Positions 35,576 through 37,915 of a DNA stretch of 64,000 nucleotides are shown piece by piece (position 1 is the first letter of the stretch; each line of letters begins with the position of its first letter). Location: positions 103,422-167,421 of the forward strand of contig JAFUAB010000022.1 in the NCBI GenBank assembly GCA_017460885.1, read 5' to 3'. This DNA comes from Lachnospiraceae bacterium (lineage in GTDB: Bacteria > Bacillota > Clostridia > Lachnospirales > Lachnospiraceae). A program made the position numbers and the translations under genes. Under the pieces are notes generated by a model, which did no database searches, had not been told where the DNA came from, and saw only the letters and a program-made list of their open reading frames with translations.

Positions 35576-36895
35576 ATGATCAAGGTAGTAAAATTCGGAG
35601 GCAGCTCGCTGGCCAGCGCAGAACAGTTCAAGAAGGCCTGCGCCATCATCAATATGGAGGAGGCCAGGAGATTTGTGGTTCCGTCGGCACCGGGAAAAAG
35701 AGACAGTTCCGATACCAAGGTGACCGATATGCTTTATCAGGCCTATGAGCTTGCCGCAAACGATCAGCCGTTTAATGATGCGCTCAAGGCGATAAAGACG
35801 AGATATGACGAGATAATATACGGACTGGGACTTGAGATCTCCCTTGATTATGAGTTCAAGAAGATAGCGGAGAATTTCAAGGTCAAGGCAGGTAAGGATT
35901 ATGCGGCTTCCAGGGGGGAATACCTAAACGGTCGTATAATGGCCGCATATCTGAACAGAGAATTCATAGATGCTGCAGAGGTGATCAGGTTCGATGATGA
36001 CGGGCTGTATGATGCCAGAGTCACCGAAAAACTGATGCGCAAGAGACTTGAGGGACTTGATGGCGCCGTTATCCCCGGCTTCTACGGTGCATTTGCCGAT
36101 GGCAGGGTCAAGACCTTCTCGCGCGGCGGGTCCGATATAACCGGCTCGATAGTTGCGGGAGCCATCAAAGCCGAGGTATACGAGAACTGGACCGATGTTT
36201 CCGGTTTTATGGTGGCCGATCCGCGGATCATAGACAACCCCGAGACGATAGATACCATAACGTATAAGGAACTGAGAGAGCTTGCATATATGGGGGCCAG
36301 CGTTCTGCATGAGGAGGCCATATTCCCTGTTCGTAAGGAAGGCATCCCGATCAATATCCGCAATACCAACGCGCCCGAGGACAAGGGCACATGGATAGTG
36401 GAGAGTACGGCCCAGAAGCCCAGATTTACGATCACGGGTATAGCAGGCAAGAAGGGATTCTGCTCGGTAAATATAGAAAAGGAACTTATGAACTCCGAGA
36501 TAGGCTTCGGCAGAAAGGTCCTGCAGGCGTTCGAGGATTACGGTATCTCCTTTGAACACGTACCCTCCGGAATCGATACGATGACCGTATTTGTTCACCA
36601 GGATCATTTCATGGACAAGGAGCAGAAGGTGGTAAGCGCGATCCACAGACTCGCCGAGCCGGATTCCATAGAGATAGAGTCCGATCTGGCTCTGATAGCG
36701 GTAGTGGGACGCGGCATGAAGTCGACCAGAGGTACTGCCGGACGGATATTCTCCGCACTGGCCCATTCAAACGTAAATGTAAAAATGATCGATCAGGGTT
36801 CATCCGAGCTGAATATCATCATAGGTGTGCAGAACCAGGATTTCGAAACTGCGATCAAGGCAATTTATGATATCTTCGTTATGGCAAACCTGTAA
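35576..36895 (+). CDS. lysC: Aspartate kinase
   Basis: 439 residues, monofunctional. Phosphorylates aspartate in the first step of the lysine/threonine/methionine pathway. Seen: VKFGGSSLA at the N-terminus, the kinase motif FSRGGSDITGSIVAGA, VSGFMVADPRII, LAYMGASVLHEEAI, and two C-terminal ACT units (from about residue 295: ITGIAGKKGFCSVNIE and LIAVVGRGMKSTRGTAGRIF) expected to sense lysine or threonine. GAGGAG precedes the ATG. It is 81 bases after hom. The symbol is by function; which paralogue this is cannot be told from the window. Confidence 0.93.
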   Translation: MIKVVKFGGSSLASAEQFKKACAIINMEEARRFVVPSAPGKRDSSDTKVTDMLYQAYELAANDQPFNDALKAIKTRYDEIIYGLGLEISLDYEFKKIAENFKVKAGKDYAASRGEYLNGRIMAAYLNREFIDAAEVIRFDDDGLYDARVTEKLMRKRLEGLDGAVIPGFYGAFADGRVKTFSRGGSDITGSIVAGAIKAEVYENWTDVSGFMVADPRIIDNPETIDTITYKELRELAYMGASVLHEEAIFPVRKEGIPINIRNTNAPEDKGTWIVESTAQKPRFTITGIAGKKGFCSVNIEKELMNSEIGFGRKVLQAFEDYGISFEHVPSGIDTMTVFVHQDHFMDKEQKVVSAIHRLAEPDSIEIESDLALIAVVGRGMKSTRGTAGRIFSALAHSNVNVKMIDQGSSELNIIIGVQNQDFETAIKAIYDIFVMANL

Positions 36896-36960
36896 ATAAC
36901 GCGCAGATATACTGTTTTTCACCAAATGTCAGAAAATTTAAAAATATTTTCAAAAAGGTG

Positions 36961-36988
36961 TTGACAATTTATTTTAAACTGATATAAT
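36961..36988 (+). promoter_or_regulatory. Strong sigma-A promoter of the candidate ncRNA
   Basis: TTGACA, 16 bases, TATAAT: both hexamers are perfect consensus. No ORF starts downstream before the terminator at 37318. Confidence 0.85.
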
Positions 36989-36994
36989 TAACTC

Positions 36995-37367
36995 ATAAAC
37001 AAACAGAGAGCAAACAAAAAGAAAGACAATACCTGACAGAAAGGTCAGAGAGTAACAGTAAACAGGAACCTCGCAGTAAGGACGAGAAACAATCAACAGT
37101 AACCGAAAACAAATACTCGAGGAGAGGTACAGTCCAATGGGTATATAACATATATCAACTGAATATGGAACATTAATCATCCAAAAAGTATCGAGTGCAT
37201 AATTAAAAGTGGAGAGAGAAGCTTAAATAATAAGCCGCCACAGATATCTGAATATCAAAATCATGCGAGAGGGTACAGGATCAGATGATGGAGGACAGTC
37301 CATTGGATAATCATTTTAAGTAGCGGGTGTCGATCAGTTAAGAATCGATGCCCGCTACTTCTTCTTT
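36995..37367 (+). ncRNA. Candidate structured noncoding RNA, about 370 nt, unassigned
   Basis: Bounded by a consensus promoter and a 17-bp terminator stem, with no usable ORF (the only Shine-Dalgarno-linked ATG, at 37138, hits TAA after three codons). Purine rich. Visible structure: CTGAC/GTCAG (37034-37049), CTCG/CGAG (near 37073-37085), GCTTA/TAAGC (near 37222-37236), and a long-range pair CCAATGG (37134-37140) with CCATTGG (37300-37306) that would close a core domain. The motif ACAGTCCA[AT]TGG occurs twice. I could not match it to tmRNA, RNase P RNA, SRP RNA, 6S RNA or a known riboswitch. It may instead be a terminated leader of the suf operon. Confidence 0.7.
37318..37367 (+). terminator. 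Terminator of the candidate ncRNA
   Basis: AAGTAGCGGGTGTCGAT pairs with ATCGATGCCCGCTACTT across a nine-base loop, with G-T pairs only as imperfections. CTTCTTT follows. Confidence 0.9.
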
Positions 37368-37447
37368 ACTGACATCAATCCTGTTGTATGCTGCCCGGCT
37401 ATCTCGTTTTTCCCCAGAATACGGCTATCTCATTTTTCAAAAAATAC

Positions 37448-37475
37448 TTGCATATATCTATATAGATGTTATAAT
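37448..37475 (+). promoter_or_regulatory. Promoter of the DUF134-suf operon
   Basis: TTGCAT, 16 bases, TATAAT, 42 bases before the DUF134 start. The spacer contains the perfect palindrome ATCTATATAGAT (37456-37467). Confidence 0.75.
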
Positions 37476-37480
37476 CATTA

Positions 37481-37494
37481 TTGACATATGTCAA
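37481..37494 (+). promoter_or_regulatory. Perfect 14-bp palindrome at the transcription start of the suf operon
   Basis: TTGACATATGTCAA is its own reverse complement and lies five bases after the -10 box, the place of a repressor operator. The likely binder is unknown; the DUF134 protein encoded immediately downstream is a candidate (inference). Confidence 0.6.
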
Positions 37495-37516
37495 AAACAT
37501 TTCACGCAGGTGTAAT

Positions 37517-37915
37517 ATGCCAAGACCGCAGAGAAACAGAAAAATTTGTACGGAGCCCAGATACAAAGCTTTTGCTCCCGTTGAAAAAAAGAATGATGAA
37601 AAGATAGATCTGTCCTGCGACGAATATGAGACCATCAGACTTATAGATCTGGTCGGGCTCACTCAGGAACAATGCGCCCGTCATATGGGCGTATCCAGGA
37701 CAACGGTTACGCAGATATACGATAACGCCCGCAGCAAGCTGGCGGATATGCTGATCAACGGCAGAACATTGAACATTACAGGCGGTAATTATTCGGTATG
37801 CAATGGACATGATCCCGAGGGTACGGGAGAATTATGCTCCCATTGCATGTCTGAGTTGAATATTCAGAAAGGAACTACACAAAATGTCACACTTATTGGA
37901 AATCAAAGATCTTAA
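37517..37915 (+). CDS. DUF134 family HTH protein, candidate suf regulator
   Basis: 132 residues starting at ATG 37517, preceded by GCAGGTG; the longer frame begins with TTG inside the operator. DUF134 proteins begin with the pattern seen here (MPRPQRNRKI, YKAFAPV) followed by a sigma-70 region-4-like helix-turn-helix (about 35-80: LSCDEYETIRLIDLVGLTQEQCARHMGVSRTTVTQIYDNARSKLADML). The tail has SVCNGHD and LCSHC, and more cysteines lie in the N-terminal half, enough for a metal or Fe-S site (inference). The gene overlaps sufC by 32 bases, so the two are translated together. Place and cysteines suggest an Fe-S-responsive regulator of the operon. Confidence 0.82.
   Translation: MPRPQRNRKICTEPRYKAFAPVEKKNDEKIDLSCDEYETIRLIDLVGLTQEQCARHMGVSRTTVTQIYDNARSKLADMLINGRTLNITGGNYSVCNGHDPEGTGELCSHCMSELNIQKGTTQNVTLIGNQRS

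Follow-up and report, generated by a model that had tools for sequence, protein, structure and literature searches.

The closest described counterparts of the RNA reported here are of several kinds. The sponge RNAs CsrB, CsrC, and RsmZ and the TwoAYGGAY RNAs of Rfam clan CL00106, of which we take CsrB to be a member, are free-standing transcripts with repeated short purine motifs, and like them the present RNA could titrate a partner. The dual-function small RNAs SgrS and RNAIII possess their own promoter, their own terminator, and a conserved short open reading frame (ORF), features which are all met again here. The bar minigenes of phage lambda, which read AUG AUA UAA, represent translation initiation on an ORF only a few codons long, to which the first internal site of the genus considered below (AUG GGU AUA UAA) is similar. 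Stabilising Shine-Dalgarno sites exist in Bacillota mRNAs as ribosome-binding sites without a start codon near the 5′ end, an arrangement that the present RNA shares. Finally, 6S RNA and tmRNA are likewise self-contained RNA genes of a similar size class; both were rejected as identities, since no match to RF00013 or RF00023 was obtained here and the 6S RNA and the tmRNA of this genome are each located on another contig.

In the analysed stretch of DNA (64,000 nucleotides of a Lachnospiraceae genome, hereafter the window) the RNA gene spans positions 36961–37363 of the forward strand from promoter through terminator hairpin (Table 1). The preliminary description had presented it as an unassigned, purine-rich, and ORF-free RNA with a consensus promoter, a 17-bp terminator stem, and a repeated motif. 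The sigma-70 match is indeed complete, the stem is recovered as a 17-nt inverted repeat with arms at 37318–37334 and 37344–37360 (88% complementary), the purine content is 64%, and the repeated motif is found as ACAGTCCAATGGGTA/ACAGTCCATTGGATA at 37129–37143 and 37295–37309. The terminator was absent from a strict T-run scan, and its U-rich tail is imperfect. The term ORF-free has to be given up, as two mini-ORFs led by Shine-Dalgarno sequences were found. Taken as a whole, the observation made in that description is partly confirmed and its interpretation is partly supported.

Table 1. Positions of the RNA gene and its parts in the window.
Feature	Positions	Strand	Basis
Sigma-70-type promoter	36961–36988	+	-35 box TTGACA (36961–36966), 16-bp spacer, TG before the -10 box, -10 box TATAAT (36983–36988); 12/12 consensus positions
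RNA, ~369 nt	36995–37363	+	5′ end placed by the -10 box and 3′ end by the hairpin (both inferred); kept in 7/7 genus genomes
Variable 5′ spacer	37015–37115	+	Largely missing in two genus members; mean pairwise identity 0.67 (core 0.91)
Internal ribosome-binding-like module (AGGAGAGGU-ACAG-UCCA)	37120–37136	+	Sequence pattern
Internal mini-ORF	37137–37148	+	AUG GGU AUA UAA; 3 to 6 codons + stop in 7/7 genus members
Core body	37149–37288	+	Highly conserved within genus
Terminal ribosome-binding module (UGGAGG-ACAGUCCA)	37289–37302	+	Sequence and family comparison
Terminal mini-ORF	37303–37323	+	UUG GAU AAU CAU UUU AAG UAG, 6 codons + stop; 5–8-codon ORF in 75/77 loci
Terminator hairpin	37318–37360	+	Stop codon 37321–37323 in the 5′ arm; inverted-repeat evidence
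Imperfect U-rich tail (CUUCUUUACUGA)	37361–37372	+	Sequence

The whole RNA including its terminator folds better than shuffled sequences (z −4.5), while with the terminator removed the excess is modest (z −2.0) and 2 of 100 shuffles fold equally well. The long-range CCAATGG/CCATTGG pair proposed earlier does appear in the minimum-free-energy fold; it gains no support from covariation, because the pair is invariant in all seven members of the genus, and most internal sites of the wider family differ from CCAAUGG. When the whole window was searched against Rfam 15 at gathering thresholds, no family was found on the RNA element, and a permissive search of 36850–37600 returned five matches, all far under their gathering scores, the best of them placing a miRNA model over the terminator hairpin (24.1 vs 116.6 bits). 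In relatives, where 13 loci were searched permissively and 14 at gathering thresholds, nothing convincing was seen on the element. Thus the designation as an unassigned, self-contained RNA gene, which relatives also keep, is retained. Covariance models of clan CL00106 gave no match in positions 36850–37600 of the window at E ≤ 10 and none on the element in 13 loci at E ≤ 1; a TwoAYGGAY RNA (RF01731, 107 bits) is located at 1162–1327 of the short contig of locus L032, on the other strand and away from the family copy. A blastn search of phages and plasmids gave only a match to Streptococcus phage CP-7 (54 nt, promoter-like, three records), which was attributed to AT-rich promoter sequence. Exact-motif scans of viral contigs with two patterns gave 0 matches, so these scans provide no sign of phage carriage.

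Conservation in close relatives, on which the preliminary description had made its proposal depend, was observed in all seven genomes of the genus, the window's genome counted. Mean pairwise identity is 0.91 in the core (37120–37320), compared with 0.67 in the 5′ spacer and 0.49 beyond the terminator. In the window the upstream gene encodes an aspartokinase (AA_kinase and ACT domains by Pfam), and the genes downstream encode a DUF134 protein, a SufC-like ABC ATPase, and SufB, in agreement with the earlier statement that the RNA lies upstream of suf. In the six relatives the RNA sits between aspartokinase and sufC, and DUF134 was found in four of them. Two further features are present between the terminator and the DUF134 frame, which begins at 37517. 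The palindrome TTGACATATGTCAA at 37481–37494, just ahead of this frame, overlaps an opposite-strand promoter-like site and is a candidate operator for DUF134/suf; and near-identical 17-nt direct repeats, CGGCTATCTC[GA]TTTTTC, occupy 37396–37438 at a distance of 26 nt, with a weaker copy at 36904.

Among gut bacteria the Lachnospiraceae constitute a major family, and sequence comparison indicates that the window RNA is a member of an RNA family spread through them. A blastn search over 299 genomes of the family returned mostly other promoters, with three genomes (G282, G043, G205) having one place that matched both ends at the correct spacing, and for this reason a covariance model of the RNA 3′ end, named R1, was built from 11 copies. 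R1 matched 129 of the 299 genomes at E ≤ 0.01 and 52 at E ≤ 1e-8. In a class sample of 391 genomes it matched 14 at E ≤ 0.001: seven with E ≤ 1.1e-6 all belong to the window's family (one genus accounts for five), and the other seven, not from this family, were weak (E 7.6e-6 to 6.2e-4). An exact 5′ motif was found at 37 places in 35 of the 299 family genomes, a reversed-pattern control giving 0, and in 3 of 381 genomes of the class sample, all three belonging to the family. A strict 3′ motif was present in 15 named records with the labels Lachnospiraceae, Lachnoclostridium, Clostridia, or unclassified bacterium. As additional observations, one locus (L022) has two related copies about 506 bp apart that differ in the 3′ end, which is without an R1 match, another (L075) has two copies of the RNA about 570 bp apart, and genome G148 contains three R1 matches.

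Two sets of loci were used for comparison. The list of 77 loci represents 80 R1 matches minus three, namely, L063, which is the same place as L027, and two opposite-strand overlaps (L050, L006); the input of 80 reached down to about E = 5e-7 and thus does not cover all 129 R1-positive genomes, and two of the 77 (L104, L105), which are without a mini-ORF, appear to be chance terminator matches. The second set includes 30 loci found via the 5′ motif alone, 13 of which were already among the 77. Members of the window's genus were thinned or omitted in the counts of words, downstream strands, pairing probabilities, stop geometry, stop position against shuffles, and promoters; the word count and the pairing-probability analysis were restricted to elements whose promoter reaches at least 10/12. 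A promoter of at least 11/12 consensus positions was found in 55 of 70 elements (34 with 12/12), compared with 2/70 and 0/70 in shuffled upstream stretches, and upstream of 25 of the 30 loci of the 5′-motif set. The estimated transcript length of these 55 elements is 168–571 nt with a median of 357. The terminator helix covaries, with two-sided changes in 15 of 15 pairs and 96.5% of cells paired, in an alignment that was fitted to the model and includes the two opposite-strand rows (L050, L006). The commonest 9-letter words in 59 bodies were GAGGTACGG (31 elements), followed by AAGGAGGTA (26), the maximum in shuffled sequences being 10.

The final module has the same layout in 75 of the 77 loci: a Shine-Dalgarno sequence, a short spacer to CCA or a close variant, a start codon, and a short ORF. 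The start is AUG in 41 and UUG in 34 of these, a count conditional on AUG or UUG having been sought after CC[A], and the stop is UAG in 50, UAA in 21, and UGA in 4. Including the start, the ORF comprises 5 codons in 57 loci, 6 codons in 17, and 8 codons in one, i.e. 5-6 in 74 of 77. The stop is codon 6 or 7 in 69 of 70 loci, while in shuffled sequences this holds for 7.9 loci on average and for 20 at most, and the end of the stop codon falls between 8 nt inside and 1 nt before the base of the terminator stem in 71 of 72 loci; in the window it is placed inside the stem. Because R1 was trained on ORF-bearing copies, by which the 77 loci are biased toward the ORF, the loci found by the 5′ motif only and a control with other hairpins were added. 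Among other T-tailed hairpins flanking 74 loci such an ORF was seen in 1 of 95, and the loci's own modules were detected in 61 of 61. In the 5′-motif set the terminal ORF was found by the automatic test in 22 of 30 loci and by eye in five more (L142, L147, L148, L164, L165); the remaining three did not show it, one having none (L163) and two having no hairpin found (L153, L162). Of the 17 loci of this set outside the 77, 14 showed the ORF, as did six of the eight places without an R1 match at E ≤ 0.01. The peptides of these six (MIEPQ, MKEVQ, MTEGFK, MIEVQ, MIEESM, and MEIAEHH) are unlike the training set, and most of these loci are without CCA ahead of the start.

The geometry of the terminal ORF is therefore kept while the peptide sequence drifts. 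Codon 2 encodes Asp or Glu in 66 of 72 loci, and Ile at codon 4, where present, is AUA in 30 of 30. A UCC-AUU-GGA mini-hairpin at the start codon was considered and is not claimed here, as two of its pairs are nearly fixed and the others have 10 and 14 unpaired cells.

Besides the final module, most elements contain internal modules with the consensus GAGGUAC-R-G-U/A-CCA, which is Shine-Dalgarno-like and usually occurs once and up to five times per element. A pattern search detected 87 internal sites in the 77 elements (none in 13, one in 47, two in 13, three in 3, and five in 1). In the window's genus the site has a start codon and reads AUG GGU AUA and stop in five members, and ORFs of 6 and 5 codons are found in the remaining two; in other genera it is most often CCN NNN NNN UAA without a start codon. 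Over all 87 sites CCA is followed by a CCN codon at 42 and by AUG at 13. An in-frame stop follows after 1–5 codons at 70 of the 87 sites, compared with 21 and 29 in the other frames, and in the 5′-motif set 28 of 30 loci have it among the first four codons, compared with 0 and 1 in the other frames and a mean of 5.0 for shuffled tails. In that set the internal UAA is roughly as conserved as the neighbouring bases of the linear motif, so that a stop codon and a part of a linear motif are not separable from this alone. In predicted folds the mean unpaired probability is 0.36 for internal modules, 0.53 for the final module, and 0.65 for other purine runs. Two of the shortest elements (L076, L086) hold little beyond tandem modules. 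Three to five internal modules, many of them about 40–50 nt apart, are present in L101 and L109, and in both an element after the stop recurs, which is AUUUCC in L101 and ACCCC/ACCCU in L109; the latter is perhaps able to pair with the module. An extended pairing of the CCA element with 16S rRNA was considered and dropped, since the preceding base varies.

In 12 of 59 elements the body includes a hairpin whose loop is UGACGAGAAAG, with a variant in L030 that has one A at the end. Two-sided changes occur in all 7 of its pairs among the 12 sequences, which are 82% paired vs 59% for shuffled sequences and reach a covariation of 0.61 vs 0.21, and 0 of 500 shuffles attained the score; 2 of the 14 rows were omitted from this alignment, namely, the window's copy, which is only an imperfect version, and a terminator loop of L109. 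Similar loops, TTGACGAGAAAG and AAGACGAGAAAT, cap the terminator hairpins of L148 and L109, respectively.

Together these comparisons show a free-standing RNA gene with its own, by prediction strong, promoter, its own terminator, varied neighbours, modules similar to Shine-Dalgarno sites, and a terminal ORF of 5-6 codons. Tentatively, and at less than an even chance, we take this RNA to act in trans by engaging ribosomes, as a decoy that tunes translation initiation; here we infer both ribosome binding itself and that such binding is the purpose of the RNA. At internal modules without a start, 30S subunits would be held with no start codon to select, and a ribosome that nevertheless began translation would be aborted by the in-frame stop. 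On the terminal mini-ORF one ribosome would go through continued initiation and release at the RNA 3′ end. An abundant RNA of this type would serve as a ribosome decoy, and body hairpins (e.g. the UGACGAGAAAG hairpin of some members) would provide a second partner. The strong promoters, the geometry of the terminal ORF, the internal in-frame stops, and the varied neighbours and strands would be in agreement with this. A more specific version, by which the RNA is a sponge titrating 30S subunits via ribosome-binding sites that are sometimes arrayed, and in which CCN replaces the start, the stop remains as a safeguard, and the terminator is fused with a five-codon ORF, is rather doubtful; for CCN at the start position we know of no precedent. 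Against a decoy speaks the prediction that internal modules are more paired than other purine runs, which would oppose free access of 30S subunits; also, a sequence-specific RNA motif could explain the conserved internal UAA, 13 of the 77 elements are without a pattern-detected internal module, three of the 30 loci of the 5′-motif set do not show the terminal ORF, and the mini-ORF may serve RNA stability only. This last thought leads to the alternative that protection of the RNA is all that ribosome docking achieves, the 5′ module being a start-less stabilising Shine-Dalgarno site, the mini-ORF parking a ribosome at the 3′ end, and the variable body binding a protein or target RNAs. The covarying hairpin in the body of some members and the strongly conserved core within the genus are consistent with it, while in a comparison between genera the words most often in common are those of the modules, the body is variable, and two of the shortest copies consist of little besides modules; by itself it is judged somewhat unlikely. 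The decoy is favoured, with self-protection of the RNA placed a close second. Less probable by far is a peptide gene, in which a long regulated leader would precede the ORF for a formyl-Met penta- or hexapeptide that acts as a signal, either inside the cell or after secretion. The narrow length of the ORF and the acidic codon 2 would fit a signal, but the peptides differ widely (METSS is a further example beside MIEPQ, MKEVQ, and MTEGFK), the invariable AUA for Ile at codon 4 points to a constraint at the nucleotide or codon level, and a pairing of GAY at codon 2 with GUCC upstream is also possible, all of which makes the peptide improbable as the product that matters.

Two other explanations, both raised in the preliminary description, concern the neighbourhood of the RNA and the protein CsrA. 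As a leader or attenuator of the downstream operon, suf in this case, the RNA would have its terminator kept open by a ribosome on the mini-ORF, and the position of the stop codon in the 5′ arm, where a ribosome would block the hairpin, as well as the suf genes that follow in the genus, are in favour of it. Among 87 loci examined for neighbourhood, which include at least one duplicate (L058 and L123 are the same element), an aspartokinase gene is upstream in 20, 7 of these being the genus, and a homologue of the window's GH3 protein (Pfam) is downstream in 22, both occurring in 11, which suggests that the aspartokinase/GH3 position is ancestral. Elsewhere neighbour genes and strands vary between loci, and the closest ORF downstream (100 codons or more) runs in the direction of the RNA at 48 of 75 loci outside the genus and against it at 27, although a cis leader should have a same-strand target downstream in every case. 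Since so many downstream ORFs are on the opposite strand and the neighbours differ, a cis role in suf expression is unlikely as the function of the family, and the leader reading itself is given very little credence. A sponge for CsrA, which the RNA would bind, had been proposed as one possibility from about nine GGA motifs. Nine were indeed found, but they are not enriched, as shuffles of the same composition have 7.3 on average (P=0.28); four of the nine are kept in all seven genus members and a fifth in six, and three of these five fall in the final Shine-Dalgarno or start region. CsrA is present in all seven genus genomes and, as PF02599 above cut-off, in 152 of the 299 family genomes, including 36 of 52 with a strong RNA match (E ≤ 1e-8) vs 116 of 247 others (odds ratio 2.5, p=0.004) and 19 of 22 at E ≤ 1e-12 (p=0.0006), both values being uncorrected for kinship. 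Thus CsrA is associated with the RNA but not required: 16 of the 52 genomes, some of them incomplete, have no PF02599 match above cut-off, G009 and G042 being scored negative with matches under it. A sponge would also be expected to have many conserved AnGGA motifs, while the conserved core of the repeated module is GAGG or AAGG followed by CCA, many modules (GAGAGG, GCGAGG) are without GGA, and no CL00106 model matched the element. The sponge for CsrA is accordingly held to be most improbable.

The ribosome decoy, if true, would be a new RNA-based way to control translation globally; if the stability reading alone is true, the RNA still represents a new class, marked by a conserved and extremely short ORF that lies within its terminator. 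Judged by its near-perfect promoter alone, the RNA may be among the more strongly transcribed Lachnospiraceae genes. A strong unannotated transcript downstream of cphy2658 of Clostridium phytofermentans, mentioned in PMC5171806, might be a member of this family. In the open-access literature on Lachnospiraceae RNAs, mini-ORFs, ribosome decoys, and minigenes no description was found, an absence which is not proof, and the main text of three noncoding RNA surveys (PMC11109978, PMC8632094, PMC8040213) is without Lachnospiraceae or the queried genus names, save Clostridium in one reference title.

In comparison with the systems named at the beginning, the RNA differs from the sponges of CL00106 in its unit, which is a Shine-Dalgarno module with CCA and an in-frame stop, in the lack of CsrA in part of its carriers, and in the lack of an Rfam match on the element. 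With the dual-function RNAs SgrS and RNAIII it shares a promoter and a terminator of its own and a conserved ORF with a ribosome-binding site; unlike in these, the ORF has 5-6 codons, occupies the very 3′ end, where its stop coincides with the base of the terminator, and encodes peptides that are unconserved and differ between genera. The lambda bar minigenes are distinguished by the fact that here a chromosomal RNA family is concerned, whose members often have several modules and in which a start codon is missing from most internal ones. Unlike the stabilising Shine-Dalgarno sites of Bacillota mRNAs, the modules are followed by CCA and an in-frame stop, are sometimes repeated, and are placed in an RNA without a long ORF. 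If the RNA is a ribosome sponge, it would stand in the same relation to the ribosome as 6S RNA does to RNA polymerase.
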